A DNA stretch of 64,000 nt from Plumapathes pennacea (Eukaryota > Cnidaria > Anthozoa > Antipatharia > Myriopathidae). Shown piece by piece: positions 15,401-56,282 of the stretch (its first letter is position 1; every line of letters starts with the position of its first letter). The position numbers and the translations under genes are program-made. The notes under the pieces are model-generated. The model saw only the letters and a list, made by a program, of their open reading frames with translations. It made no database searches and was not told the origin of the DNA. Where the stretch lies: assembly GCA_964036295.1 (NCBI GenBank), contig OZ038465.1, positions 14,995,667 to 15,059,666 on the forward strand, written 5' to 3'.

Positions 15401-16383
15401 TCTGTAGGTTTGTAATGAGCTTTGATTGGTTCACCTTCCTTCACTAAAATAAAAGGAAGACGTACAAAATACAATCATGTGAAATGCAATATTTTGTATA
15501 GCATAGTAACACCAGTTGCATGACTTTTAGCCTGATTTTTAGTGTCTCAAGTATATCCACATACTTCCACTGACCCCCCCCCCCCCCCCCCCCCCCCCCC
15601 AAGGAAGTTCTTATCACAGCACTCTTAAGAGTAAAGACTGAGATGGGTTACCTGCTGCCTTTCTGGGATGGGGATTATTGTCCTGTGCTGGCCCATCACA
15701 GACTGCATCATAACCTAGAGGAAGATAGGAAATTTGAGAAAACTAATGCCAGAGGAAACCATCTGTCCGGCCACGAAGAAGTGAGTTTCACAAGAAATCC
15801 TGGAAGTACTTGTGTTGCTGTGTTACATACTAGGCTGTCAGACTTATGGCCAAGAATGGGCCTCGGAAAAATATATTTAAACAAGGCCACAAATTAACAC
15901 TGTAGATTTACCAATTATTTCTTTTTTCGATTCTATACTTTGACTACTTCATATGAGAGAAGACGATAGTGCTTCTCAGCGTTCGGTAGAGATTACTTCT
16001 TACTGGTAACACGTTTGTTCTGTTTTCCTAAAATGTATATTTTAGGGATTTTAGACGTGTAAAACATTGTACATACCATTCAAAGACATTTTTTCATCTT
16101 TAGGTGCGTCATATTGTTTACTGAAAACCTGAAAGAGGTGCTGATTCTGGATTACATCTTCTGACAAATCCTGGCGCCCGACTGCATCAAACGCTTTCTT
16201 CAAGTATTCTGGAGTCAGCTTCCGAACTTGTTCCAGCGCGTGGAATAACTCGTGGGGCTGCTTCATCTTCTCACTCAACCCATGTGGAACATCATCCACT
16301 AAAAGATACTTCAGTTCATTAAACTGTTTCTCATTCACATTCTTGGAAAGTTGCAGGACGTACATGCGAAGTTCTATACTCAT
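6477..16383 (-). CDS. Death-effector-domain protein with three ubiquitin-like folds (12 exons, 909 aa)
   Basis: Exons 16383-16077, 15714-15652, 15443-15072, 13248-13093, 12569-12075, 11513-11132, 10698-10159, 9603-9521, 9068-9004, 7005-6872, 6697-6662 and 6573-6477 join in frame (2730 nt including the TGA), every junction with AG/GT and matching phase. Residues 1-75 are a DED (LKYLLVDDV, HELFHALEQ, FDAVGRQDL). Residues 124-220 are acidic and contain SELHS repeats. Residues 300-464 are Ser/Ala-rich with a poly-Ala run. About 422-510 is a beta-rich domain (EYGLVIIENGMQF, GRFLGVWLVES, LLTFYS). About 549-607, 611-680 and 684-755 read as ubiquitin-like folds (for example TCVKEVLVFLQEKL...RLIRKGKKL and GAQLLFNEECLEEDDTMCL). 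Residues 772-800 are Gly/Ser-rich and the tail is Pro/Ser-rich. A death-fold oligomerising adaptor with ubiquitin-like surfaces is the inferred role. The DED exon is nearly identical to that of the peptidase gene at 53867. Intron 9 holds a Mutator-like element. Confidence 0.82.
7598..8774. mobile_element. Mutator-like (Pack-MULE-type) element with captured kinase fragment
   Basis: The element is 1177 bp. Its ends are perfect inverted repeats beginning GGGTGTCTAGAAAACTAAGA, and the similarity continues inwards for about 130 bp (7598-7735 against 8640-8774). It is flanked by a perfect 10-bp direct repeat AATAAAGGAG at 7588-7597 and 8775-8784, the long-TIR and 9-11 bp target-duplication pattern known for Mutator elements. 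The left arm holds an additional partial tandem copy of the TIR (about 7770-7940). The interior contains no transposase but does contain a protein-kinase fragment. It sits in intron 9 of the DED-UBL gene, in which it should be spliced out. Confidence 0.87.
8121..8627 (-). pseudogene. Captured protein-kinase N-lobe fragment inside the Mutator-like element
   Basis: From an ATG at 8627 the minus strand reads a leader, then a glycine-rich loop GRGSFGAVF. A frame change near 8466-8472 follows, after which the next frame continues with VVVIKKL (the VAIK lysine), a helix-C-like stretch ending ARILNSLSDEHIVQL, a hinge-like MILEYLYFD and HGLKFLH just before the place of the catalytic HRD loop. It stops at a GTGAGA splice-donor-like site at 8121, so the captured piece looks like genomic exon DNA, not cDNA. 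The fragment lacks the catalytic loop and DFG motif, so it cannot be an active kinase. The parent looks like a RIPK/tyrosine-kinase-like receptor-adaptor kinase, but the family is uncertain. Confidence 0.75.
9770..10085. repeat. Interspersed repeat also found at 19350-19560 and 44165-44420
   Basis: The stretch with CGATTGCAATCTGCTCACGCAAGC and the following GGCACTTTCTCTCACTGTTGATTGG resembles blocks near 19405-19500 and 44290-44400. No coding content. Confidence 0.5.
12250..12282. repeat. (GCA)n microsatellite encoding poly-Ala
   Basis: A GCAGCAGCAGCAGC tract lies inside exon 5 of the DED-UBL gene and encodes a run of alanines on the minus strand. Length variation between individuals is likely. 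Confidence 0.8.
12858..13008. mobile_element. Hairpin MITE (ACCCTGGGTGCC family)
   Basis: Imperfect inverted ends (TACCCTGTGCATCAGATGTTAT and its complement ending ACCTAGGGTA) enclose a GC-rich centre with the CCCCCAGCCCT motif. The same structure recurs at 51113-51263. It lies in the intron between exons 4 and 5 of the DED-UBL gene. Confidence 0.7.
14412..15049. repeat. Interspersed element with CCCGTAAAATACGGG end
   Basis: It begins with a short palindrome CCCCCGTAAAATACGGGG and ends near GCGTATTATTATATAGAGA. The end motif CCCGTATTTTACGGGG recurs in reverse at 17862-17884. A partial relative with the TCAAAGTACAAAC block and the same TATTATTATATAGA end is at 52370-52666. No intact frame. 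It lies in intron 3 of the DED-UBL gene, ending just short of exon 3. The class is not clear. Confidence 0.55.
15571..15600. repeat. Poly-C tract
   Basis: About 28 C residues in a row within an intron. Its length is probably unreliable in the assembly. Confidence 0.9.
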
Positions 16384-18661: not shown

Positions 18662-21600
18662 TCACTGATGGACGTCGGCTTTGAATTCAGTTTTCAATCG
18701 GAGCTTGCGCCCGGTCTTCTCCTCCAGTTTCTTCAGCACCAGCTCCATGGGGCAGGCCAGAGCATAGATTGCACTGAATGTTGTGTCAAAAAAGCAGGCG
18801 AAGAGGAGACCAACCGCCTTGCCCTCAGAGTCAAAAATCACAGCTCCACTATCTCCTGGTGCGGCAAACGACCGTGCATCCGTCGGATTTCCTTTGATAA
18901 GCAAACAATTGTGGCACCAAGCCGCCTGAAGCTCCTGTTCCTGCGAAAGAACAATAAACAGGACTTGGTATCATCGGCACGCTGATCGAGGCGTTTTTTG
19001 AGAACACCGCGGAAATACTCTTTTCGGCCGTGCGGTCACTTTGCTTTTGAGTCAACGGTTATTGCACATAACCGTGGAGTCAAGTTAAATGTAACGCTCG
19101 CAAGTCTTCAAGTCTTAGCCAAGAAACTCAATACTTGGACTTGATACTTAAATACAGTTTAGTTCGTAGTTTAGTTTTAGATTGCAATTTCTTAAATACA
19201 GTTTAGTTCGATGCAATTTCTATAACATAAGTTGTGCACAGGAAAAACCGGGCTTGCACACGATGTGAAAATTTACCTCGAATTATGAGAAGTTAAATAG
19301 CCATGGCGACGAACGCCGACCAACGGAAGTGACGTCAAGAACGTATTTCCGCGATGCCGTTTTAGGGTAATCGTGCCATTGCTTTGGTTTTGCGTTTAGG
19401 AACAAAGGCAACACAAGATTGCGATCTGCTCAGGCAAGCAAGTGGCCATGGCGTTTTCTCGCACTTTTGATTAGTTTCTTTTTCAGAGTAAACTAAACGC
19501 AAATTACTTGGGCTCTGAATGATTGAAAGCTTTTCTGCGCATTAAATAAATTTGGTTTTGGGGTTTGAAAGTATCCGAAACCGCCGTAAAGCTGTGTTTA
19601 CAAAGGTGCGTTTTCGTTTAAAAACGATGCAATTTTACCTCCCGTTTTATAACGATTCCGCTTTTGGGTGTTTTAAGATCGATGCATTTTTATCGCAGTA
19701 TTCGATCGTTTACGTGTACAAACAAGATGTAAAAGCGCATCGAAATCAAATGCAACCTATTTTGACAAGCCTCTGTTGTACTTACTAAGGCCCGGGTTAA
19801 CGCCGTACTTTACATGAGCCGAACTCAATGCAAATGAGCAAAAATCCATTGTTTGAGCTAATTTGCATTGAGTTCGGCTCATGTGAAGTACTACGGTAGA
19901 CTTACAGGTCGATCCCAGCGTCCATGTAAAGCGCGTGAGATACACGTGTTCCGACATTGCCCGACCTCCCCGTGTATTTTATTGTGAAACTTTTCCTCAG
20001 CTTCCAGCCTTTAACTGTAGTTTGTAATCTCTCTGAACAGGTAAGCACGGTGAAGTGGCAAGTCTGACTTTTTTAGGAAACCCCTATTCTATCATTATTT
20101 TTTATTATATAGCCACTTTAACGTGTATAAGCTTTTTATAGTAAGAAGTAGAATATATAACGTACCAGACTTTCATCTGTTTGGACATTCGCCCCAGGTG
20201 ATGTTCCCTTCTGCTCCTCCGTCTCGTAGTACGGTAAACACTTTGCTTCCTTTCTACAACCGATGCACTCACAAAATGTTTTCAAACTTGGCGCGTCCAC
20301 TAGTTGTGCGTTCTTTGTTTTGGCACACGACTCGCAAAGATATTGCGGATGGAAATCATGCATCTGGCACTGTTCTATGTTCCGACAAAAGCAACACAGT
20401 CTTCGGTCAGGCAAACCGGTTTCTGCACCATTCCATGTGATGCTCCTTTCCTCGGCACAAGATTTACAAGTATCATGTCGGAGAGCGTAATGAGGGAAAC
20501 AATCGGCTTCCTTTCCGCATCGGGCGCAGTTTGCAGTCTCAGGCTTACCGTTCACCCCTTGTCCTTCAAAGCAGGATGTACAATAAAATCGAGGCATGGC
20601 GACGTGAAAAATCGACTTGGCAGGCTTGTTGCATCCAAATTTAATGTTACTGTAGTGCTGCCCATGCAGATACATGTCTCGGCTTAAAATGAAGCCTTTA
20701 GTGCTTTCAGTCGTTCTTCCACACTTGCGTACTGCTTCACCACTAACTATCTCGCTCAACTTCAGGCATTCGCTTGGAGGTGTCTTTGGACCAGAGGCGA
20801 GTTGAACAAGTCCATCCCACTGAATCTCCGGCACCTCTAGTTTGGCAATCCCCGCGTCGATGTAAAACGCTTCATCCACTCTATCCATTCCATTGATTTT
20901 CACATTACCTTTAAGCCCATCGGCGTACGTTGCAATTTTTCTGGGCTGCTCTTCGTAAATCTCGAGGAACTCTTCCTTCAGTCTTGACAGCTTTGTCCGC
21001 CGTCCCTCCAGCGGTCCGAGAAGCTCGCTATTTCTCGTGCAAAAATCATTCAGTTCTTTCCACAGTCGCTCTTTGTGCCACTGACCGTAATCGTCTAGCC
21101 CAGTGCTTACTCTCTTTTCCTTCACCTTTTTGAAATCCGTTGCGAATCGTTCTTTGTAATCGTCCAAGATTTTCTCCAATGCTCTGACATTGTCACGTAA
21201 CGACGGCTGAACAATCGACGTATATTCTTTTTCCTGTGTGCCGCGCAGGACATGATAGCAAGAGAGGGCAAATACGTCCCCTCTCACGGCCTCGTCTTCA
21301 ACCAATGCACCCAGGCTTCCAGCTACGTTAACTCCCTCACGACCTGAAACGATAAAACAGGAAATGCTGTAAAAGAGGAAAAAGCTTTAACACGATAAGC
21401 CAAACCTAAAATTACTCGGTCATGAGTGCACATGTGCATAATCAGCTCGCAAAACTTAAAATCGTGAGGCTAAAGCCCCGTGCACATGGGCAAGTTTTGT
21501 ATGACAAGTTTTCTTTGACAATTTTTTTTTTTGCTCGTGTGCATGAGAAAATTTGGCCAAATTTACTATAACAAATGCATTTGCTGAAAAGCTGGCGTGT

Positions 21601-24600
21601 TAGCTTTTTTATGACAAGGAAAAATTGTCACATGTGAAATTTGCTTCTGTACACGAAAACGTGCCAAAGTTTTTCGAAATACTTTAGTTTCCAGGTCTCT
21701 ATTTGCGAGCGTGTTCGCACGTCAAGATGGCGGCGTTCAAACATTGACAACAGAGTATTTGAATTGGTCAAATAATCGCTTAGTCAGACGACTTATTTTC
21801 TCTTTCAAGATTTAAAATTCGTCTATTCGATAAATATGCTGCGATTTGAGCGTTGGCGATTTATACAGTTTATACTGTTGACAAGCCGTTCTAAGTATGG
21901 CTAGATTTGAGCGCCGCAGAAGCTAGCGAAGAAAGGTCCGTGTACTTTGAAATAGACCCGTCAGCTTTTGCTTTGATTTTGGTAGAATGTTAACCCGTTT
22001 TGAGGTTCAGATACAAAATAAATTGAATTAGCCGTTGAAGCTCATTAAATATGCGCGCCGTGTTATTTTAAAAAGACGCATGTGATAACTCATGACCAAG
22101 CCCCTTTAAATTAACTCTATTTGTGAAGCACTGCATCAGTATAGTTAGGCCTGAAACGTCGAACTTCACATGCGTCGAATACAATGCCAATGAGCAAAAT
22201 TGTGTTCGACGCATGTGAAGTTTGACGTTTGAAACAGGCCTTTGCTCAGTTTTGGCCACACGTTGAAATCTCCCAGCAACAACCACGATGAGGGGCGCAA
22301 ATCTGCTGTCACACCGGAATGTAAAAACACTGATCCTTCCTAAGTGAACGTAGCCTATTCGTTTACCCCTTAGCTGGTATTCTACCATTCGTTTGGTTTA
22401 CTGTCGACAAATTGTAATAGTATTTTATTCAAGCTCACGGTCAGGTAATAATCTCTTCAGTGGAGACTTTCGATGCTTGATTCAGTTAACTTGTCCTGAC
22501 TACACTGGCGAGAGCCAGTTTTGCCACCGAGGCTTGAGACGGTAATAATCGGGACGCTATCTAGTTTGTTTTAAATTCGTCTGATAGTCGCCCAGGAGGC
22601 GACCTGATGTCGAAACAGTAGAAATTATGCCACGTTCTGGGTTTTATTCCAGGAGACTCACAGCACCCAAGCAACAGCCAGAACACCTTTAGCCGTAACG
22701 TTACTAATAAAACAAATCATGCAATCACTTGAGAAAATACCAGTTCTAAAGTAAAGACTTTCCCTATTTAGCTTAAGGTGACTTTGTTGTAATTTCGTCC
22801 ACGACAAACTTGCAACGATCATTCAGCAATATTTGTGAAAGAATTCGATTTAACTGGGAAAAGATATTTTCAGTGATATTATAGCTCAAGTGGACAGCAC
22901 TTTTTAAACAAAATCGCACCCAGTGAAAAACTTTGCTGGTACCTATTTTTGTAAAATTTCCGGAATTAGCTTATATTGACTTAATACATACCTTAACCAA
23001 GTTTTAGCAAAATCGTTGGAGCAGAAGTAAATTTCATGGCAAAAATGATGGCCTTATTACCTCCGCTCTTCTTATGATCCAAAGTTTGTCATGGACGAGT
23101 GTGCCCAAACTTACAACGGAGTCGCCTTATTACCTCCGCTCTTCTTATGATCCAAAGTTTGTCATGGACGAGTGTGCCCAAACTTACAACGGAGTCACCT
23201 TAATTAGTCGAAACCATTGCAAACTACAGGGTCAAGGGATATCTGAAAATGTGGTATTTCTAGTCGTTTATATGAATGCAGTTAGGAAGAAAGTTATCTA
23301 CTTTACCAATGCTGACTCCAAGCTTCAGTGGGCTCTGAAACTCTTGAGTAACCAGTATGCTTTGATCATCATTGCACTCCAACCAAAATCCCTCCAGGAC
23401 ATCAACAGGAAATCCTGCTATTGTGCAAGGTATCCTGTACTCCCCCCATGGAATGTTTCCTTTACCAAGAACATACACCGCAATACAAGGAGTGCTGCTC
23501 TGTGTAAAATCTTTGACCTTTAATGATGGGAAGACACCAGTGATGTTGCTGTGCTGAGAAAACAGGTCAAGGTTCTTCTTGATGGCTACGGCTATCTCAG
23601 CAGATTCTGTTATTGTAACGGGCTTGAAGCCTAATGGATAAGACACACATGGCACGTGGACAGGATCATTGAAAAGATCAACCCATTCCAGCTTCACACC
23701 CAGTGGACTGAATCGTTTCTCTGCCTCTTCCTTTAAAGATTCTGATATTCCACCATTACCAGGACAGATGTAGAACGTGACAACCTTGGGACTGGCTCCC
23801 TTTCCATACGCCAGGACACGAATGCACTCTTTGTAACAAGCTGCAAATTCTGCAGCCTCTTTATGTATGGGGCATACACCTGAAAGATTAGGTAAAACTA
23901 TTAATGTTAATCAATCAATCAATCAATCAATCAATCAGAAATAAAAAAAACACAGGATTTATCATGCATGGCGTTTTTCAAATCGTACACAACGCCGTAA
24001 CAAGGCTGCTGCTTGGCTAACGCTTGTTGAAGCGGGAATGTACTAAAAAAGTCGTTCTGTTATTGCAGTGTGCCCTGTTTCACTATTTTAGTTTATTTGT
24101 ACAAATATATCCGAACAGTAACAAATCCTATTAACTTAGCATTCCTTCATTGATTAATTAATGAATTCATGCTCAATATAACAATATTTACCAGATGCTC
24201 CGTCCTCATTCCCATGGTACTGTTTCAAGTTTTGCATGGTCAGACGTCCGCCAGTGTTGTCGATCTGCGCCTGCAAGCGCTCACTCGGAGACTGAAGATC
24301 TAAAGCAAGGCGTATCAGTTAGCTCAACCTTGACTTGGTGAGTCCAATTGTCCTCTTGACAAATTAAACAGGGAACGAAGAAAAAGATCAACCCGAGTCA
24401 TATCGGAGAACTAACTATGTCTTATACAATAATTTAAATGACATTATTAAAAACGGTTCATAAATACAGTCCAACCTGTATGTAACGGTCACCCTCGGTA
24501 CTTTAGACATTGGCCGCTTACTACAGGTTTACCAAAATACTTACTGGGCATGGACAGATTTAAAGTCAAGTAATTCTAGACACTGTTTTCTTTTTGTTAT

Positions 24601-25730
24601 TTTTGTACCCTTACGATATTGATGTATGAATTATGTTGATGTTGCAATAAAATCGTGAATTGATATGTGGTTTAGGTTTCCATTCATAGGTGGCTGCTTA
24701 ATACAGGTCAAAATAGCAAAGACAGACAAACACGGGACTGCTCAAGGGTGGCCGCGACCGCTTAATAGAAGTGACGGTTTAATACTGGAAAGTCACTCAA
24801 AGAAGTCAACATTGCAGTTCTTTGTACGTGTGTGCCAACAACAGTGTGAGTACCATGAGAAAAATGACCTTTCTGGGTTGCTTGGTTGTTCCCGGTTGCT
24901 GATACAGGTTTGATGATACTTGCTTTATCACAGCCATCCATATTTCCTGTATTGGAAACGACTGAGGGCGGAGGGACGACAACAGGCAAGGTTTTACTGA
25001 CACTTGATCCTTTGCTTACTTGGCAATACTGAGGAAGTGTTTGAGAGATAGACTTAGCCGGGACAACAGGTGGTGCCTCCATTGGTTCTGCGTGGTCCAG
25101 GGTTGAGCTGCTCTGTACGGTGTACCACTTCGCTTCCGTTTCTATTTTCTTTGACGTCCCCACCGTCCACGAGTCGCTTTTGGTTTTTTGGCTGGTTTCT
25201 TGTGACGCACTTGTTTGTCCCCCTGAGGGAAGGGGAGTGTTAGCCGTGTGGTCTCCACCCTTGTGAATTGCAGCGTTCATTGAGTAACAGACGCCGGAGT
25301 TTGTCGGCCTCAAGGGGCTCATCAAACTTTCCGCAAACAGATCATTCGGGCTTGATGGACTGCTTCTAGTATCGCCTGCAGATGAACACAATATGTTACT
25401 ATAATTCAAATTCTACAGCATCTTCACAACTATCAGGTCTAATGTCAATACCAGCCATAGGGTTTTGAATATGGCTGATAGTACAACAACTGTTGCTTGC
25501 CACTTCTATTACACCAGAATCAGAACTTCAACTTCTTGGTATTCTTAAACTGAATGGATATATACCTCGTTTTCGCCGCGTTGTCCAAATATCTTCCTCT
25601 TCCGCGCCATGATTAAACGTGGGGGAAATGTTTCCGTAAGGACGGTTCTTCTGGTAGGAAGTGCACTGCCGGAAAGGGCAACACCATCGAAGGTAGGACC
25701 TGAGGAGCCGCCGCGGGCGCCTTTTGTCTT
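18662..25730 (-). CDS. Trypsin-like peptidase with zinc-finger insert, copy 1 (5' end not found)
   Basis: Exons 25730-25566, 25375-24869, 24299-24192, 23879-23307, 21343-20166 and 18940-18662 join in frame (phases 1,1,1,1,0) to a TGA, giving about 935 residues. The last three exons match the complete gene at 48031-53867: a two-part linker domain, then the peptidase with His (ALSCYHV), Asp (YIDAGIAKL) and Ser (APGDSGAV) all present, a charged helical insert, and C-x2-C-x5-C-x2-H/Y zinc-finger-like modules. The first three exons are different from that gene: a basic, Ser/Thr/Pro-rich region (KNRPYGNISPTFNHG, SSPSSPNDLF) and a short helix. The first listed exon starts at an AG acceptor with phase 1, so at least one upstream exon is missing; no DED was found in 25.7-42 kb. 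The exon-2 donor (GTCATT) is weak. Probably a functional protease, but the N-terminus is unresolved. Confidence 0.75.
19795..19903. mobile_element. Hairpin MITE (ACATGAGCCGAACTC)
   Basis: Two arms of about 33 bp (GTACTTTACATGAGCCGAACTCAATGCAAAT type and its complement) are separated by about 25 bp. It belongs to the same broad family as the hairpins at 22146-22247 and 50745-50872. It lies in the intron between the last two exons of peptidase copy 1. Confidence 0.7.
21470..21720. repeat. Partial MITE copy (AAAGCCCCGTGCACATG end)
   Basis: Left part of the element that is complete at 45850-46337. The right end is missing, and the sequence changes after TCTATTTGCGAGCGTGTTCGC. Confidence 0.6.
22146..22247. 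mobile_element. Hairpin MITE (GGCCTGAAACGTCGAACTTCACATG)
   Basis: Inverted arms of about 40 bp with GAGCAAAAT near the loop. A longer relative is at 50745-50872, in the equivalent intron of the third peptidase gene. Confidence 0.75.
22774..23204. mobile_element. MITE with TTAA target and internal tandem duplication
   Basis: The ends are TTAA-GGTGACT(C/T)(C/T)GTTGTAA and its complement ending GTCACC-TTAA. The right terminal block of about 72 bp is present twice in tandem (23052-23123 and 23125-23196). The same terminal family (GGGC(G/A)CACTCGTC...ACAAACTTTGGATCATAA) forms the ends of the large inverted-repeat element at 54152-56282. Confidence 0.78.
23906..23938. repeat. (TCAA)n microsatellite
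   Basis: About eight tetranucleotide units in the intron just upstream of the linker exon of peptidase copy 1. Confidence 0.9.
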
Positions 25731-43247: not shown

Positions 43248-45747
43248 TCACTGATGGACGTCGGCTTTAAATGCAGTTTTCAATCGGAGCTTGCGCCCGG
43301 TCTTCTGCTCCAGTTTCTTCAACACCAGCTCCATTGGGCAGGCCAGAGCATAGATTGCACTGCGTGCTGTGTCAAAAAAGCAGGCGAAGAGGAGACCAAC
43401 CGCCTTGCCCTCAGAGTCAAAAATCACAGCTCCACTATCTCCTGGTGCGGCAAACGACCGTGCATCCATCGGATTTCCTTTGATAAGCAAACAATTGTGG
43501 CACCAAGCCGCCTGAAGCTCCTGTTTCTGAAAGAGAACAATGACCAGGACTTGGCATCACCCCGGGGGGGGGGGGGGGGGGGGGGGTACTCCCATACATA
43601 AGCTATACAGGTATGTGCCATCCCAAAGGGTATCATTTTCAGCATTTTAGGCCCCATCCACACTAATCTGGATAAACAAAACGCATTGAAAGTTTTCCGT
43701 CCACACTATCGTTATCGCTGTCCACATTAATACGCTGGACTGACCGAAAACGCTAAATGCCGGGATTGAGCATGCGCACAGAGATCACATGATCATCATG
43801 ACGTCAGGCGTTTTCGTAAAGCTCCGTTTTCGATGTCTACACTACAACATGAAACTGGAGTTTTTAAAAATATCCACTCTGGAAAGCGCTTTCGAAAATA
43901 TCCGCTTTCGGTCAACGAAAACGCGTCTTGGTGTGGACGGAAGGCCAAAACGGATAAATAAATATACGTTTTTAAATTTATTCGGATTAGTGTGGATGGG
44001 GCCTTTGACTGAAACAGGGAATGAATTTTGAGCCTTTGGTCTGAAATGGGGTAAAAAAAACTGTCGAAAATCTCATATTTCGGTCTGAGATAGGGTGAGG
44101 GTTTCAATCCCAGGTGGTGCACTCCCACCCAAAATTTTGAGGAGAACCCCTCCTCCCGGGGGCATCATCGGCATGGTGCTCGAGGCGATTTTTGTCGATA
44201 ATCGTGTCATTGCATTAGTTTTGCGTTTGCTACCGTGTTGGATTGGCCCGAACAGCATTTGCATGGCAGCATTCTCGCTCAATCAGAAACAAAGACAAAA
44301 CACGATTGCAAACTCAGGCAAACAAGAACATGGCGATGGCGTTTTCTCACACTGCTGATCGGCTTCTACTTCAGAGTAAAACTAAACGCAAATTACTTTG
44401 GCTCTGATTGATCGAAAGATTTGGTTTGGGGTTTTGAAAGCTGCACTATCAGGAACAGAAGCGTTTTAAAAACGCAATTTTTAAGAAACCATTATTCTGT
44501 CATTATTTTTTATAACTACTGCACCTTGCATAAATTTTTGATAGTAAGAAGTAGAATATAATTATAACGTACCAGACTTTCATCTGTTTGGACATCCGCC
44601 CCAGGTGGTGTTCCCTCCTGCTCTTGCTCCGTCTCGTAGTACGGTAAACACTTTGCTTCCTTTCTACAACAGATGCACTCACAAAATGTTTTCAAACTTG
44701 GCGCGTCCGCTGATCGTGCTTTCATTTTTTTAGCACACGACTCGCAAAGATATTGCGGATGGAAATCATGCATCTGGCACTTTTCTATCTTCCGACAAAA
44801 GTTACACAGTCTTCGGTCAGGCAAACCGGTTTCTGCACCATTCCAAGCGATGCTCCTTTTCTCGGCACAAGATTCACAAATGTCATGTCGGAGAGCATGA
44901 TGAAGGAAACACTCAGCTTGCAAACTACAACGAGTACAGTTTCCAATCTCAGACTCACCATTCACCCCCAGTCCTTCAAGGCAGGATGTACAATAAAATC
45001 GAGGCAGGGCGACGTGAAAAATCGACTTGGCAGGCTTGCTGCATCCAGAATTAATGTTACTGTATTGTTGCCCATGCAGAAACATGTCTCGGCTTAAAAC
45101 GAAGCCTTTAGTGTTTTCAGTCGTTCTTCCACACTTGCGTACTGCTTTACCACTAACTATCTCGCTCAACTTCAGGCATTCACCTAAAGGTGTCTTTGGA
45201 CCAGAGGCGAGCTTAACCGGTCCATTCCACTGAATCTCCGGCACCTCTAGTTTGGCAATCCCCGCGTCAATGTAAAACGCTTCATCCACTCTATCCATTC
45301 CATTTATTTTCACATTACCTTTAAGCCCATCTGCGTATGTTGCGATTTTTCTGGGCTGCTCTTCGTAAACCTCGAGGAAATCTTCCTTCAATCTTGACAG
45401 CTTTGTCCGCCGTCCCTCCAGCGGTCCGAGAAGCTCGCTATTTCTCGTGCAAAAATCATTCAGTTCTTTCCACAGTCGCTCTTTGTGCCACTGATCGTAA
45501 TCGTCAAGCCTAGTGCTTACTCTCTTTTCCTTCACCTTCTTGAAATCCGTTGCAAATCGTTCTTTGTAATCGTCCAAGATTTTCTCCAATGCTCTGACAT
45601 TGTCACGTAACGACGGCTGAACAATCGACGTGTATCCTTCTTCCTGTGTGCAGCGCAGGACATGATAGCAAGAGAGGGCAAATACGTCCCCTGTCTCGTC
45701 TTCAATCAATGCACCCAGGCTTCCTGCTGCGCTAATTCCCTTACAAC
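43248..45747 (-). CDS. Trypsin-like peptidase with zinc-finger insert, copy 2 (5'-truncated)
   Basis: Exons 45747-44573 and 43526-43248 join in phase 0 and are both fully open. They encode the whole interrupted protease domain: His in ALSCYHV, Asp in YIDAGIAKL, GRTTENTKGF, the zinc-finger-like modules, and Ser in APGDSGAV. The upstream acceptor (TTTCAG, phase 1) is intact, but the linker and DED exons expected next are absent: 45.85-46.34 kb is a MITE and the copy-3 flank starts by 46.76 kb. It is very close to copy 3. Without a new 5' exon it has no start codon, so it may be a pseudogene. Odd feature: the coding parts show no stop or frameshift, so the truncation is recent or an unseen first exon is used. 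Confidence 0.72.
43563..43586. repeat. Poly-G tract
   Basis: About 23 G residues; the same place in copy 3 (48340-48350) is only CCCGGGTGGGGGG. Likely a collapse-prone assembly position. Confidence 0.9.
43650..44003. mobile_element. MITE with GGCCCCATCCACACTAATC ends (copy 2 intron)
   Basis: Inverted ends GGCCCCATCCACACTAATC(T/C)GGATAAA on both sides and CGTTTTCG-rich subrepeats inside. It is nested in a larger symmetric block (43587-44150). It is carried by both peptidase copies 2 and 3 in the same intron but not copy 1. Confidence 0.82.
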
Positions 45748-48030: not shown

Positions 48031-51000
48031 TCACTTATGGACGTCGGCTTCAAATTCAGTTTTCAGTCGGAGCTTGCGCCCGGTCTTCTCCTCCAGTTTC
48101 TTCAACACCAGCTCCATGGGGCAGGCCAGAGCATAGATTGCACTGCGTGTTGTGTCAAAAAAGCAAGCGAAGAGGAGACCAACCGCCTTGCCCTCAGAGT
48201 CAAAAATCACAGCTCCACTATCTCCTGGTGCGGCAAACGACCGTGCATCCGTCGGATTTCCTTTGATAAGCAAACAATTGTGGCACCAAGCCGCCTGAAG
48301 CTGTTTCTGAAAAAGAACAATGAACAGGACTTGGCATCACCCGGGTGGGGGGTACTCCCATACATAAGCTATACAGGTATGTGCCATCCCAAAGGGTATC
48401 ATTTTCAGCATTTTAGGCCCCATCCACACTAATCTGGATAAATTTGAAAACGGAGTTTTCAAACAAAAACGCATCGAAAGTTTTCAGTCCACACTATCGT
48501 TTTCGCTGTCCACATTAATACGCTGGACTGACCGAAAACGCTAAATGCCGGGATTGAGCATGCGCACAGAGATAACATGATCATCATGACGTCAGGTGTT
48601 TTCTTAAAGCTCCGTTTTCGCCGTCCACACTACAATGTGAAACTGGAGTTTTCGAAAATATCCACTCTGGAGAGCGTTTTCAAAAATATCCGTTTTCGGT
48701 CACCGAAAACGCGTCTTGGTGTGGACGGGAGTCCAAAACGGATAAATAAATAAATATAGGTTTTCAAATTTATTCGGATTAGTGTGGATGGGGCCTTTGA
48801 CTGAAACAGGGAATGAATTTTGAGCCTTTGGTCTGAAATGGGGTAAAAAAAAAAAACTGTCGAAAATCGCATATTTTGGTCTGAGATAGGGTGAGGGTTT
48901 CAATCCCAGGTGGTGCACTCCCACCCAAAATTTTGAGGGGAACCCCTCCTCCCGGGGCATCATCGGCATGGTGCTCGAGGCGATTTTTGTCGATAATCGT
49001 GTCATTGCATTAGTTTTGCGTTTGCTACCGTGTTGGATTGGCCCGAACAGCATTTACATGGCAGCATTCTCGCTCAATTAGAAACAAAGACAAAACACGA
49101 TTGCAAACTCAGGCAAACAAGAACATGGCGATGGCGTTTTCTCACACTGCTGATCGGCTTCTACTTCAGAGTAAAACTAAACGCAAATTACTTTGGCTCT
49201 GATTGATCGAAAGATTTTCGGCGTATTAAACTAATTTGGTTTGGGGTTTTGAAAGCTGCACTATCGTTTGAAAACGATGCCATTTTACCTCCCGTTTTTA
49301 CTATTTGCACGAAACAGGAACGGAAGCGTTTTAAAAACGCAATTTTTAAGAAACCATTGCTCTATCATTATTTTTTATAACTACTGCACCTTGCATAAAT
49401 TTCTGATAGTAAGAAGTAGAATATAATTATAACGTACCAGACTTTCATCTGTTTGGACATCCGCCCCAGGTGGTGTTCCCTCCTGCTCTTGCTCCGTCTC
49501 GTAGTACGGTAAACACTTTGCTTCCTTTCTACAACAGATGCACTCACAAAATGTTTTCAAACTTGGCGCGTCCGCTGATCGTGCTTTCATTTTTTTGGCA
49601 CACGACTCGCAAAGATATTGCGGATGGAAATCATGCATCTGGCACTTTTCTATCTTCCGACAAAAGTTACACAGTCTTCGGTCAGGCAAACCGGTTTCTG
49701 CACCATTCCAAGCAATGCTCCTTTTCTCGGCACAAGATTCACAAATGTCATGTCGGAGAGCATGATGAAGGAAACACTCAGCTTGCACACTACAACGAGT
49801 ACAGTTTCCAATCTCAGACTCACCATTCACCCCCAGTCCTTCAAGGCAGGATGTACAATAAAATCGAGGCAGGGCGACGTGAAAAATCGACTTGGCAGGC
49901 TTGCTGCATCCAGATTTAATGTTACTGTATTGTTGCCCATGCAGAAACATGTCTCGGCTTAAAACGAAGCCTTTAGTGTTTTCAGTCGTTCTTCCACACT
50001 TGCGTACTGCTTTACCACTAACTATCTCGCTCAACTTCAGGCATTCACCTAAAGGTGTCTTTGGACCAGAGGCGAGCTTAACCGGTCCATTCCACTGAAT
50101 CTCCGGCACCTCTAGTTTGGCAATCCCCGCGTCAATGTAAAACGCTTCATCCACTCTATCCATTCCATTTATTTTCACATTACCTTTAAGCCCATCTGCG
50201 TATGTTGCGATTTTTCTGGGCTGCTCTTCGAAAACCTCGAGGAAATCTTCCTTCAGTCTTGACAGCTTTGTCCGCCGTCCCTCCAGCGGTCCTAGAAGCT
50301 CGCTATTTCTCGTGCAAAAATCATTCAGTTCTTTCCACAGTCGCTCTTTGTGCCACTGATCGTAATCGTCAAGCCCAGTGCTTACTCTCTTTTCCTTCAC
50401 CTTTTTGAAATCCGTTGCGAATCGTTCTTTGTAATCGTTCAAGATTTTCTCCAATGCTCTGACATTGTCACGTAACGACGGCTGAACAATCGACGTGTAT
50501 CCTTCTTTTTGAGTGCCGCGCAGGACATGATAGCAAGAGAGGGCAAATACGTCCCCTGCCACGGCCTCGTCTTCAAGGAATGCACCCAGGCTTCCAGCTG
50601 TGCTAACTCTCTCATAACCTGAAATGATAAAACAGAAAACGCTGTAAAAAAGGAAAAAGATTTAACACGATAAGCCAAGTAGTGGCTCATTGAACCTAAA
50701 CTTCCTTAAATTCACGTAAGTTGCGAAGCAGTACATTAGTAGAGTTGGGCCTGAAACGTCGAACTTCACATGAATGGAATACAATGCAAATGAGCAAAAT
50801 CTATCAGTAAATAAATTCAGCCAATTTACATTGTATTCAACATATGTGAAGTTCAATGTTTGAAACAGGCCTTAGCTCAGTTTTGGCCTCACATTGAAAT
50901 CTCCCAGAACCACCACAAAACAGTCAGTGGTAGATGATTGTGTTGCGGGAACAAAGCAAGGAGAAATCGGTTGGTTGGAGGCAGATATAGACCGAGGGGC

Positions 51001-53867
51001 GCAAATCTGCTGCTACACTGGAATGTAAAAACACTCATTCCTAAGTGAGTGTAGCCTTCGCTTACCCTTTGGCTGGTATTATAAATGTTTGGTAGAACCT
51101 TTCTCTACCATGATGTATTGTACCCTGGGTGCCAGAGGTTTCTCGCTGTTGGAAGCTCTGAGCTGCGCGGCCACGGAGGAGGGTCCATGGTTTGGCCCCC
51201 AGCCCTATGCAGCCGTGCAGCTCGGAGCTTCCAAGAGTGAGAAACCTCTGGCACCCAGGGTCTGTGTACTGTCAACAAACTGTATTTATTCAAACTCACG
51301 GTCAGGCAATAATTCCTTTTGTGAAATCAGTGGAGACTTTCAATGCTTGGTTCAGTTAACTTGGCCTGACTACACTTGCAAGAGCCAGTGGTATTTCCAC
51401 TTCGGCGAATAATTGTTAAATGTGGTATTTCTAGTCATTTATATAAATGCAGATAGCAAGAAAGTTATCTACTTTACCTATGCTGACTCCGAGCTTCAGT
51501 GGGCTCTGAGACTCTTGAGTAACCAGTATGCTTTGATCATCATTACACTCCAACCAAAATCCCTCCAGGACATCAACAGGAAATCCTGCTATTGTGCAAG
51601 GTATCCTGTACTCCCCCCATGGAATGTTTCCTTTACCAAGAACGTACACCGCAATACAAGGAGTGCTGCTCTGTGTAAAATCTTTGACCTTTAATGATGG
51701 GAAGACACCAGTGATGTTGCTGTGCTGAGAAAACAGAGCAAGGTTCTTCTTGATGGCTACGGCTATCTCAGCAGATTCTGTTGTTATAACGGTCTTGAAG
51801 CCTGATGGATAAGACACACATGGCACGTGGACAGGATCATTAAAAAGATCAACCCATTCCAGCTTCACACCCAGTGGACTGAATCGTTTCTCTGCCTCTT
51901 CCTTTAAAGATTCTGATATTCCATCATTACCAGGACAGATGTAGAATGTGACCACCTTGGGACTGGCTCCCTTTCCATACACCAAGACACGAATGCACTC
52001 TTTGTGACGAGCTGCAAATTCTGCAACCTCTTTACGTAGGGGGTAAACACCTGAAAGATTAGGCAAAACTATTAATGTCAATAAATCAATCAACCAATCA
52101 ATAAGAAAATCAACAACACAGAATTTTTCATGCATGACCATTTATGATATGACAACAGTGAATCAGATTATGCACATGAACTGTAGTCATGTCTTCAGCC
52201 CATTACAGTAAAATGTATGTGAGCAAAACCTCGTTATAATGAAACCTTGTTACAACCTTGTGTATAATGAACATATTTTCCCAGTCCCTTGGCTTTCATT
52301 GTATCAAGGTTTCAGTGTGTTTTGGTTTTGCATTTGCCATGCTGTTGGAATGGTCCAAACAAGTACTGCAGCACTTTTGGCAAGTGTAGTTTACAGTGTC
52401 AAAGTACAAACTTCTCTGTAGTGCGTGTACCACTCAACCGTACCACTCGCAGCATCAGTCCGACATCCAGTCACCTGACAGCGCAAATTATCCTTTAAAT
52501 TTATTTCCGATTTCTAAAAGAACTGTGGTCAGCATACGAGACCAATATTTATACTTAATTTCACTCAATGTGGTGGCCATCTTGGATTTTTATGATGAGG
52601 AGGCCTGGGAAAGAGCGTTACAGACAGACGAACGGAAGTGGCTTAGTGTATTATTATATAGATTGAATTTGACTGAAGCACGATGAATTGGCACAACTTT
52701 GATTAAATTGGCACAACTTTGATTCAGACATCGAACTGAATTTACCATTCCACCAAACTTAAGAAATTTAGCTTGAGGCTTTTCCAGTTGTTTGTAGGGA
52801 TTTCAGGAGCTCAGATTTGAAATTTATGCTTTCATACGTTATTTATAGTAAATATGTCATGCATTTGGTGTCTGAATCACAGCTGTGCAAAAGTTGTGTA
52901 GCATGGCAGAGCTTGTTGAACTTAATGCTTAGTTGAAGTTAATTGAAACATTTGATTCAGACGTTGTGCTATAGCAATAATAATATTGTTTACCAACATT
53001 TCTTTTGTTATTGTATTTTTGCCAATTGTAAAACAAAAGAACTCTTTGCTTTAACAGCCAATATATCTCTGGTTGACACATTAAGAGGTTTCCTGCTGTA
53101 AATTTGAGCACTGCACACAAAAAGTCTGTATGAGAAAAAGAAGCACCATTTCTGTGATCTATTTTGATTTCCTAGTTTGACTATGTAAGATGATCACGTG
53201 CGAGTAACACCAAAAATACTCAAGAGCGTAAGCCGGGAAGATGTGAGTGCTTTTTGTTGCCTTCCTAGCTCAAAATGTGCAATAATAAGTGCGTTATCAT
53301 TGCAAAAGAAGAGTTTGACCTCCTGTTTCTTAGAGAGTTTTGGGAATTATTTTTTGGTGTTACAGTGAAAGATGCTTGGCATCAAGGATCTTAAGAAAGT
53401 GGCAAAAAATTCTCAATAATTGATTGATAATTATTGCAAATAAATTGTGTTGGTACAAGAATTGTTTCGTTTTACCGTGATCATTACTCAAGTTTACAGC
53501 GGAACTCACTTAATAACAATTAGGTGACTCCAGCTCGACTCTAGCATCGACTCTTATACATACCATATATTGGGGTTGCATCTTGAGGTGAATCATTTTG
53601 CTTGGATAAAACCTGAAAGAGGTGCTGATTCTGGATTACATCTTCTGACAAATCCTGGCGCCCGACTGCATCAAACGCTTTCTTCAAGTATTCTGGAGTC
53701 AGCTTCCGAACTTGTTCCAGCGCGAGGAATAACTCGTGGGGCTGCTTCATCTTCTCACTCAACCCATGTGGAACATCATCCACTAAAAGATACTTCAGTT
53801 CATTAAACTGCTTCTCATTCACATTCTTGGAAAGTTGCAGGACGTACATGCGAAGTTCTACACTCAT
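48031..53867 (-). CDS. DED-containing trypsin-like peptidase with zinc-finger insert, complete gene (4 exons, 777 aa)
   Basis: Exons 53867-53564, 52050-51478, 50618-49438 and 48306-48031 join in frame (phases 1,1,0) from ATG to TGA. Residues 1-75: DED (LKYLLVDDV, HELFLALEQ, FDAVGRQDL). About 103-285: a two-part conserved linker (RVLVYGKGASPKVVTFYIC; then TPCIAVYVLGKGNIPWGE and FPVDVLEGFWL). From about 288: a chymotrypsin-like fold (GVSIG, GSLGAFL) with His323 (ALSCYHV), Asp455 (YIDAGIAKL), the strand KCGRTTENTKG and Ser716 (APGDSGAVIF). A charged helical insert fills 342-445. Between GRTT and Ser lie three modules: C565/C568/C574/H577/C585/C588, C609/C612/C618/H621/C629/C632, and C652/C655/C661/Y664/C694/C697, the last split by intron 3. 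No signal peptide, so cytosolic. I infer a DED-recruited protease in cell death or immunity; substrate unknown. Confidence 0.86.
48416..48795. mobile_element. MITE with GGCCCCATCCACACTAATC ends (copy 3 intron)
   Basis: Same element and position as 43650-44003, in the last intron of the complete peptidase gene. Confidence 0.82.
50745..50872. mobile_element. Hairpin MITE (GGCCTGAAACGTCGAACTTCACATG)
   Basis: Inverted arms of about 45 bp around an AT-rich loop; the same family as 22146-22247 and in the same intron of the paralogous gene. Confidence 0.75.
51113..51263. mobile_element. Hairpin MITE (ACCCTGGGTGCCAGAGG family)
   Basis: Near-perfect inverted ends ACCCTGGGTGCCAGAGGTTTCTC enclose a GC-rich centre with CCCCCAGCCCTATGCAGC. 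A diverged copy is at 12858-13008 in the DED-UBL gene. Confidence 0.8.
52340..52672. repeat. Interspersed element (TATTATTATATAGA end)
   Basis: Partial relative of 14412-15049, sharing the TCAAAGTACAAAC block and the 3' end. It lies in intron 1 of the complete peptidase gene. Confidence 0.5.
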
Positions 53868-54151: not shown

Positions 54152-56282
54152 TGGGCGCACTCGTCTATGACAAACTTTGGATCATAACTTTTCTGGCTTT
54201 TATGCGATTCCTATAAAACTTTAAGAAACGTTGCATCTATCATTCAGCAATAATATGACAGATAGCAATAAAGAAATAATCAACCAGCTTGCAAAAAAAA
54301 AAAAAAAAAAAAAAAGAAATAAATAAAAAATCGCGCCGCGGGGAGAGTTGTCCGGATCCCAAGCCAGTTCGAGGGGCAACCCTTGCCTAACACCCGTCCA
54401 CGATCAACGAACGGGGAGAGATAATTCGGCCCCCAAGCCATGGTGAATTATCCCTAAATCCGAAGAGCGCTTAAATGCTAAGCCGACTTATTAATTATAT
54501 GCACCGAATCAGGTATATATAGTTTCAGGCAAGAGGCCTTTCATCCATATGGGATGTACATTTTTATCGTCGTTCCTTGCTTTATGAATAAAAATTGCAC
54601 CGTCCTATTGTTATAACCGGTTTAGCTACTTCTATATCCCCGAACCACTTATCCGACTTTGAACTCAAGGTTCAATGTCAGAAAGGCCTGTTAAAGCAAA
54701 CTTGGGACTCGGCGCATGCGCAACAGTACATCTGATTTTTCTTGGTGAGACTGTGGCCAATCTCGTATCCAGACTCTTCCAGACTCTTCCAGACTGGACA
54801 CTGGACTTTTTTTTTTTTTTTTTTTTTTTGAAACGTTCACTAACAACTTTTCAGCTTCGGCTTCATGAGTTTCACCGACAGAGTATCGAGTTTTTATTGA
54901 CAGCTATCGAAATCTATCAAATTCTCTTAATCACGCCCATTCGTTTGAATCCACGAGGAAACAGTTTTTCTCCCTCCCTTCTCCTTGTATTTAAAATGTA
55001 AACCCCGGTACGTCTTCAAAGAATACTCTGATCGTGGGACTAACAAAGTGCCTAGGGACAGGGAAAATGTGTTCGTTATGTCCGGAGTTTATTATATCAG
55101 AAACCTGGTTATAACGAATTTGTGAGTAAACGACCAAACATTCGTTCTATCGGTGTGGTTAATTTATGCTTTAAAATTAACCAGTGTTACGTTGCACCAT
55201 CCAGCATTTGGTCTTATTTTACAATACTACAGTATCTGAATTGGGCCCATTGCTTTGGGTGATTAGCCACTTAGACGTTAAGCATTTGTCTTGATCTGAT
55301 TCGCGTTGCCAATCACCGTCGTGTGATATTGTATCGGGGTAAATTGTAAGTTTGCCATTTATCCGTTACATCGGGGTAGATTGTAAGTTTGGGATTCTAG
55401 ATTGTGTTCGTTATATCGACATTCAGTTCTATACATTTTATTTTCTGTAACTTTGGCCGGTTGAGCTGAAAAAAAAAAAAAAAAAAAAAGAAGACTTGCA
55501 GAGCCATCGATATTTCCAAAGCACCAATTGAATATACAACAAATGATAATGAAGTCAATGCTTTTGCCAAAGCCGAAGCCGGAGCCGAAGCTGAAAAGTT
55601 ATTAGTAAACGTCTCAAAAAAAAAAAAAAAAAAAAAAAAAGTCCAATGTCCAGTCTGGATACGAGATTGGCCACAGTCTCACCAAGAAAAATCAGATGTA
55701 CTGTTGCGCATGCGCCGAGCCCCAAGTTTGCTTTAACAGGCCTTTCTGACATTGAACCTTGAGTTCAAAGTTGGATAAGTGGTTCGGGGATATAGAAGTA
55801 GCTAAACCGGTTATAACAATAGGACGGTGCAATTTTTATTCATAAAGCAAGGAACGACGATAAAAATGTACATCCCATATGGATGAAAGGCCTCTTGCCT
55901 GAAACTATATATACCTGATTCGGTGCATATAATTAATAAGTCGGCTTAGCATTTAAGCGCTCTTCGGATTTAGGGATAATTCACCATGGCTTGGGGGCCG
56001 AATTATCTCTCCCCGTTCGTTGATCGTGGACGGGTGTTAGGCAAGGGTTGCCCCTCGAACTGGCTTGGGATCCGGACAACTCTCCCCGCGGCGCGATTTT
56101 TTATTTATTTCTTTTTTTGCAAGCTGGTTGATTATTTCTTTATTGCTATCTGTCATATTATTGCTGAATGATAGATGCAACGTTTCTTAAAGTTTTATAG
56201 GAATCGCATAAAAACCAGAAAAGTTATGATCCAAAGTTTGTCATAGACGAGTGCGCCCAATGAAACTCCGGAGGCACCTTAA
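54152..56282. mobile_element. Large inverted-repeat element, arms about 700 bp
   Basis: The arms 54152-54873 and 55562-56262 are reverse complements of each other with high similarity and are separated by about 690 bp of AT-rich DNA without coding potential. Their outer ends (GGGCGCACTCGTCTATGACAA...) belong to the TTAA-type MITE family seen at 22774-23204, and the right end runs into CACCTTAA. Poly-A/T runs of 20 or more occur at 54295, 54808, 55470 and 55617. Either one foldback element or two copies inserted head to head. Confidence 0.8.

Follow-up and report, generated by a model that had tools for sequence, protein, structure and literature searches.

The 64,000-nucleotide stretch of contig OZ038465.1 of Plumapathes pennacea (Cnidaria, Anthozoa, Antipatharia; assembly GCA_964036295.1, positions 14,995,667–15,059,666), called the window here, carries on its minus strand a gene whose predicted product of 777 amino acids joins a death effector domain (DED) to a serine protease. 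The gene, named gene A, consists of four joined exons at window positions 48031–53867. Its protease is, as judged from sequence profiles, a relative of the NARROW LEAF1 (NAL1) group and of bacterial trypsin-endonuclease proteins, and the protease sequence is interrupted by two insertions, one of which holds cysteine modules. We propose with moderate confidence that the DED of the product tethers a cytosolic serine protease, one of the kind of NAL1 and the bacterial trypsin-endonuclease proteins, and that DED assembly gathers the protease and switches it on. DEDs assemble by like-with-like contact. The DED of the predicted product would join DED assemblies, such as one with the near-identical DED encoded by a neighbouring gene, and the crowding would switch the protease on or bring it to its substrate, as in DED caspases. 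The helical insertion and the cysteine modules may act as partner- or substrate-binding or allosteric elements beside the active site.

Exons, catalytic residues and protease family

The exons and catalytic codons of gene A are as follows.

53564–53867, minus strand: exon 1, start codon and DED, residues 1–101 and the first base of 102
51478–52050, minus strand: exon 2, residues 102–292, NAL1_N-like domain at about 195–290, preceded by a part with no assigned domain (102 to about 194)
49438–50618, minus strand: exon 3, residues 293–686, His323, helical insertion, Asp455, GRTT (501–504) and cysteine modules
48031–48306, minus strand: exon 4, residues 687–777, Cys697, Ser716 in GDSG and the stop codon
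50527–50529, minus strand: codon of His323, catalytic His by homology
50131–50133, minus strand: codon of Asp455, catalytic Asp by homology
48217–48219, minus strand: codon of Ser716, catalytic Ser by homology

The introns were all of the GT/AG type with phases 1, 1, and 0, and the joined frame was open. Residues 8–77 matched the Pfam DED model (PF01335; E 3.2e-10, 40.6 bits against a cut-off of 35.9), and R70-Q71-D72-L73 fitted an RxDL-type motif, which we take to be the charge-triad motif of DEDs. An initial annotation, made from the sequence alone, had described a four-exon gene joining a DED to a trypsin-type protease with His323, Asp455, and Ser716 present, and both parts of this description held: the exons joined exactly to 777 amino acids, the DED was above its cut-off, and the catalytic residues were all found at the expected columns.

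Paralogues were searched for in the genome (290 Mb, 24 contigs), and their counts are lower bounds. Copies A (gene A itself), B, and C lie on contig C4, and copies C12, C10, and C1 on the contigs so labelled. Relatives of exons 3 and 4 were found in all six copies, and relatives of exon 2 in A, B, C12, C10, and C1, with a broken fragment elsewhere on contig C1. The order of exons 2, 3, and 4 was kept at C4, C12, and C10, with open joined frames at C12 and C10. Because the same exon order recurs at the paralogous loci C12 and C10, exons 2, 3, and 4 of gene A are, on this comparative evidence, one gene.

The motifs of the protease were SCYHV (320–324), YIDAG, which contains Asp455, and GDSG (714–717), and His, Asp, and Ser occurred in collinear order in the product of gene A and in its relatives. 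A scan of prokaryote genomes with patterns that held the HVL or GRTT motif gave 58 relative loci, of which 15 entered the main relative profile, 30 a second profile, and all 58 the catalytic alignment. The columns of His323, Asp455, and Ser716 were H, D, and S in all 58 relatives and in copies A, B, C12, and C10. The rows were found by motif and cut on xNxHV and GDSG, and the conservation of His and Ser is therefore partly built in; that of Asp, present in 58 of 58 relatives without selection for it, is not.

The ratio of non-synonymous to synonymous substitution rates (dN/dS) between copies A and B was 0.57 over exons 2–4, with open frames and intact splice sites. By region, the ratio was 0.74 for the first half of exon 2 and 0.73 for the cysteine region; residues 438–520 had 0.48, the Ser part 0.30, the helical insertion 0.26, and the NAL1_N-like part 0.11. 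Around His (residues 293–345) there were 13 non-synonymous and 3 synonymous changes and a dN/dS of 1.47, a value based on small counts. That value, together with the large insertions beside the active site and with the inactive trypsin-like domains that the available text of one study reports from bacterial conflict systems (PMC7159879), would fit a pseudoprotease, a protease-like fold serving as a peptide-binding adaptor. We regard this as quite improbable, given that the four copies A, B, C12, and C10 all retain the catalytic triad and that the Ser part has a ratio of 0.30.

The assignment of the protease came from profiles. The 15-relative profile matched the 777 residues with 89.7 bits, and the best of 200 shuffled sequences reached 3.4 bits. 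The match was collinear in three pieces, 195–349 (52.9 bits), 494–513, and 703–760. With hhalign, the probability against this profile was 98.5 over residues 198–345, and 99.5 over 194–331 when four animal copies were used; hhalign and profile placed the NAL1_N-like domain (about 195–290) before the protease. The same profile matched solved plant NAL1 structures (E 1.8e-12), and all three stand-alone relatives scanned (L004, L025, and L059) listed Pfam NAL1_N and/or Nal1_C, L025 above the cut-off.

The nearest relatives found were proteases of bacteria and archaea, together with the trypsin-endonuclease proteins of bacteria. Five of the 58 were short frames of 314–356 amino acids (L004, the archaeal L025, L052, L053, and L059), nearly all others had the fusion length of 563–768 amino acids, and two were longer. 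Endonuclease_NS was present in L006, the sole fusion scanned; Pfam gave no match to it in the 777 residues. A tblastn search of plasmid records returned seven records at E 0.3–8, individually non-significant, five of them annotated as DNA/RNA non-specific endonucleases (E 0.3–3) and two apparently unrelated. A Rhizobium protein aligned in three collinear pieces with residues 201–344, 487–517, and 714–762. The label "trypsin-type" in the initial annotation thus stands for the catalytic residues and is sharpened here to the NAL1 / trypsin-endonuclease kind, with a NAL1_N-like domain that had been left unnamed. On its sequence, the protease is filed neither as a NAL1 member nor as a NucA-trypsin member, because the product lacks both a direct Pfam match to NAL1 and the endonuclease domain.

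Several results weigh against this assignment and the reading built on it. In the Pfam scan of the 777 residues, Trypsin_2 (E 0.024) and Peptidase_S64 (E 0.16) stayed under their cut-offs, and a plain domain search therefore leaves the part outside the DED unsettled. The Pfam NAL1 models were not listed at E up to 10, where HMMER filters drop most matches above 0.1. The profile-profile alignment ended at the first insertion. When the four-copy animal profile was run against PDB, NAL1 structures were absent at E up to 10, and the best matches were helical proteins, at 0.038, besides fragments of S1-type proteases that matched weakly (1.2 and above); the best phmmer match was an alphavirus capsid protease (0.038, over 693–755). 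As regards a possible defence role of this protease subtype, Walker-type open reading frames (ORFs) flanked only 4 of the 58 relative loci in the flanking stretches examined, and PADLOC matched none of the four relatives scanned.

A classical secreted trypsin was rejected, since it is NAL1-type relatives that the family match points to and Pfam listed no model of classical Trypsin. A caspase catalytic domain was not listed either (Pfam, 777 residues, E up to 10). NCBIfam gave nothing convincing for three relatives and nothing for exon 3, and a PADLOC match of exon 3 to a type IIG restriction enzyme (0.0092) was taken as chance. No relatives were found in viral contigs, where 23 pattern matches of one search proved unrelated and another search gave none. 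A Nal1_C search of the coral's own genome returned no matches, and its controls also returned none. The first half of exon 2 had no match in PDB by phmmer at E up to 10, and its interpretation as a second NAL1_N copy was unsupported (hhalign probability 4.2). In Rhizobium loci L001 (1888–2880), L016 (2894–3883), and L028 (2888–3871), an ORF of 328–330 amino acids lay directly 5′ of the trypsin-endonuclease gene; the one in L001 is annotated as "hypothetical protein".

Insertions and cysteine modules

Two insertions lie between the catalytic residues of gene A.

50197–50439, minus strand: His–Asp insertion, residues 353–433, charged and probably helical, with a short aligned stretch at 412–418
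49438–49887, minus strand: exon 3 part of the cysteine-module insertion, residues 537–686, with the pair 547/550, module 1 (Cys565–588), module 2 (Cys609–632), and module 3 (Cys652–661)

The protease fold had been described as interrupted twice, and the spacings agree with this. From His to Asp there were 42–90 residues in the relatives (median 42), against 132 in copy A, 159 in C12, and 243 in C10, so that the length of this insertion varies among paralogues. From GRTT to GDSG the relatives had 41–52 residues, against 213 in copy A, 206 in C12, and 176 in C10. Between these two motifs a C-x2-C was found in none of the 58 relatives, and any cysteine in 34. A weak profile match in C12 (12.3 bits) extended across the strand that immediately precedes the cysteine block; the block accordingly lies between this strand and the Ser loop.

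Cys547, 550, 565, 568, 574, 585, 588, 609, 612, 618, and 697 were invariant in all six copies, which amount to about three lineages because A, B, and C are mutually close and C10 and C1 likewise. Among them are the C-x2-C pairs 547/550, 565/568, 585/588, and 609/612 and the single Cys574 and Cys618; the pair 547/550 is an extra one ahead of module 1. C10 and C1 had gaps at Cys632, 652, 655, and 661, which the other four copies retained. Cys629 aligned only in A, B, and C, with a cysteine nearby in C12. There were about three modules per copy except in C10 and C1, which had about one and a half.

The modules had been described as three C-x2-C-x5-C-x2-H/Y...C-x2-C units, of which the first two have Cys or His at all metal positions and the third has Tyr in place of His and takes its last cysteine pair from the next exon. 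The units are present as described in copy A, but the paralogues do not support His/Tyr as a metal position. The fourth position held His in A, B, and C alone, which are near-identical to one another: His577 of module 1 was replaced by Phe in C12 and C10, and His621 of module 2 by Arg in C12, with a gap in C10, where a Tyr was placed by eye. It is therefore not a conserved metal ligand. The pair from the next exon was also unsupported as a metal-binding one, since Cys697 was kept in all six copies but Cys694 in only three, the other three having Arg or Ser.

The cysteines were kept well beyond the other residues in the distant comparisons: A and C12 shared 15 of 18 cysteines but 31 of 123 other residues (p 3e-6), and A and C10 shared 11 of 12 but 25 of 97 (p 1e-5). 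Between A and B the counts were 18 of 19 and 110 of 141 (p 0.07), no significant excess. A structure held by cysteines is supported at this level, and the invariant C-x2-C pairs probably hold zinc. A named zinc-finger family (B-box, RING, or other) was not listed by Pfam for the 777 residues at E up to 10, and the similarities seen were all non-significant, among them those to the B-boxes of plant CONSTANS proteins (E 7.6 and 9.9) and to the restriction enzyme PacI (1.9).

Whether the modules are a metal or redox switch, or instead a scaffold or docking platform for a substrate, a ubiquitin-like protein, or nucleic acid, is almost evenly balanced in our view, with the platform falling just short of an even chance. 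The platform would fit the varying number of modules among copies in which the triad is kept, the faster evolution of the cysteine region than of the Ser part (0.73 vs. 0.30), and the lack of any similarity beyond non-significant ones such as those to B-boxes and PacI. The position of the modules speaks for a switch: the loop that holds them immediately precedes the Ser loop, and movement at this place would be expected to affect catalysis.

The DED exon and the copies of the gene

The further members of the family in the window and the second DED exon are listed here.

23307–23879, minus strand: copy B, exon 2
20166–21343, minus strand: copy B, exon 3
18665–18940, minus strand: copy B, exon 4
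44573–45747, minus strand: copy C, exon 3, part of a tandem duplicate of the gene's 3′ half
43251–43526, minus strand: copy C, exon 4
16077–16383, minus strand: second DED exon, core near-identical to that of gene A, apparent first exon of a different gene

At least 42 DED matches were listed in the 290 Mb, and only the two of the window adjoin a member of the family, one upstream of copy A and the other 2.3 kb downstream of copy B. We infer the join of the DED exon to exon 2 from position, phase, and splice sites. Exon 2 has no Met in copies A and B, whereas in C12 and C10 an in-frame Met lies near its start. Gene A therefore needs a coding start upstream of exon 2, and the DED exon is in place there with fitting strand and phase.

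Alternatively, the DED exon may lie outside this gene, as the first exon or a relic of another DED gene, with the protease starting at an unseen exon or at a Met upstream of exon 2. This we consider unlikely. Among the 42 matches listed, no DED was found upstream of copies B, C12, C10, or C1, and the near-identical DED 37 kb away apparently starts a different gene. Upstream of the acceptor, the frame of exon 2 stays open as far as a Met at 52141 (52051–52141, minus strand) and contains a hydrophobic stretch, which coincides with, and probably is, the tract before the acceptor and possibly marks an alternative start. Copy B seems to have other upstream exons: S/T/P-rich and short exon-like stretches with plausible splice sites were seen by eye upstream of its exon 2 (minus strand, about 24870–25375 and 24192–24299), and copy B may have an N-terminus unlike that of A. 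No first exon common to different copies was found in the stretches compared. On the other side, the splice sites of gene A are canonical and the phase matches. A DED exon 1.5 kb upstream on the right strand would be very unlikely at random given 42 matches in 290 Mb, and even for a local copy the chance is roughly 0.4% (1.5/64 × 1/2 × 1/3).

Retaining the DED as part of gene A, we read copy A as having gained it. The gain would have occurred through exon shuffling, and the ancestral animal form probably was DED-less. The two DED exons were 95% identical over 303 nucleotides; successive 50-nucleotide blocks of their cores had 49, 50, 49, and 50 identities, the exon ends were weaker, and the flanks were unrelated. 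This pattern looks like gene conversion between the two exons. A fuller version of the proposal, in which death-fold assembly activates a serine protease of shared bacterial ancestry as an alternative to caspases, the cysteine modules form its gate, and the DED pair is kept alike by gene conversion, is held only tentatively and is in our opinion rather unlikely as a whole. In the apparent second DED gene (16383–12075, minus strand), S/T-rich exons placed by eye follow the DED, and a ubiquitin-like sequence at 10155–10748 (Pfam ubiquitin E 9e-4, below the cut-off) may belong to it.

Copy C lies just downstream of gene A and lacks exons 1 and 2; it is open, its acceptor sites are intact, and it could act as an alternative 3′ protease cassette (43251–45747). 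Copy C1 is disrupted: exon 2 has a broken frame, and in the joined sequence there is another break close to where exon 4 begins. These two copies and the large inverted repeats nearby would suit a degenerating locus of tandem copies in a repeat-rich region, some of them no longer functional, and yet for gene A this is very improbable: A and B are both open over exons 2–4, with a dN/dS of 0.57 and intact splice sites. One such repeat has arms of 467 nucleotides (54309–54775 and 55652–56118) that are 100% complementary, with 876 nucleotides between them, and is perhaps a recent mobile element or fold-back.

Other frames were noted near the copies. On contig C1, at about 9846739–9846969 (L090) and about 3 kb upstream of exon 2 of copy C1, a CARD-like frame (CARD_2 E 2.9e-5, below the cut-off) emerged from a Pfam scan of ten hand-picked ORFs; it has no clear donor site, and an ORF that looks by eye like a reverse transcriptase lies between it and exon 2. 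On contig C12, at about 10041234–10042679 (L086), a frame of 482 amino acids lies 3.5 kb upstream of exon 2 of copy C12, and by eye we take it to resemble the C-terminus of a caspase-like (CHAT) protein. The window also contains a protein-kinase-like exon at 8117–8506 on the minus strand (Pfam PK_Tyr_Ser-Thr E 4.6e-8).

Comparison with known systems

Animal DED signalling is regarded as the business of caspases, and in the DED-containing initiator caspases an N-terminal DED recruits the protease. Gene A shares the N-terminal DED and differs from them in having a single DED and a serine instead of a cysteine protease. By analogy, its product may work like death-fold-recruited peptidases. If the proposal is true, an animal DED joined to a serine protease of the bacterial kind would make it directly testable whether animal immunity retains a non-caspase branch of the adaptor–peptidase logic of bacterial conflict systems, and suggests that a non-caspase protease could be switched on by cell-death adaptors. 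The cysteine modules offer a defined insertion for asking how such a protease is regulated.

Plant NAL1 (solved structures 7y77, 8hau, 8pme, and others), to our knowledge, has neither a DED nor cysteine modules, unlike gene A. The two are alike in the NAL1_N-like domain before an S1-type domain and in the GR(T/S)(T/S) and GDSG motifs of the latter, and the link between them runs via the bacterial profile, not through a direct match. In maize, NAL1a degrades a TOPLESS-like corepressor, according to the available text (PMC12915138).

Among bacteria, the NucA-trypsin proteins (System 3 of Kaur et al., 2020; PMC7159879) have a homologous pre-domain and protease with collinear motifs. As far as that source describes them, they are unlike gene A in having a C-terminal endonuclease domain and no DED, and C-x2-C between GRTT and GDSG was absent from all 58 relatives. 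In nuclease-protease pairs, a trypsin-like protease is reported to activate a pro-nuclease (available text of PMC12799240). The Caulobacter LypABC system, as its available text describes it (PMC13236601), comprises LypA, with a CARD-like and a trypsin-like domain, and LypC, whose peptidase Ser is needed for lysis and whose endonuclease residues are not. The architecture of LypC resembles that of the relative loci found here, a likeness drawn from the description and not from sequence; in contrast to the DED of gene A, the CARD sits on LypA and the LypC-type protease does not carry it.

Trypsin-like and caspase-like peptidases stand in for each other at equivalent positions of bacterial conflict systems, tied to adaptor domains of which some are death-folds (available texts of PMC7159879 and PMC8195603). 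In the literature searched (including the available texts of PMC8195603, PMC6321704, PMC5013795, and PMC11797021; most subscription papers and annotated eukaryote proteomes lay outside it), a DED fused to a NAL1-type protease was undescribed. The principle of joining a death-fold to a trypsin-like peptidase is already reported in bacteria, as far as the available texts go (PMC8195603; PMC13236601). The bDLD1- and bDLD3-trypsin-like fusions, compared here by description, follow the same principle; they are bacterial and the available text mentions no cysteine modules in them (PMC8195603), whereas gene A belongs to an animal and has such modules.
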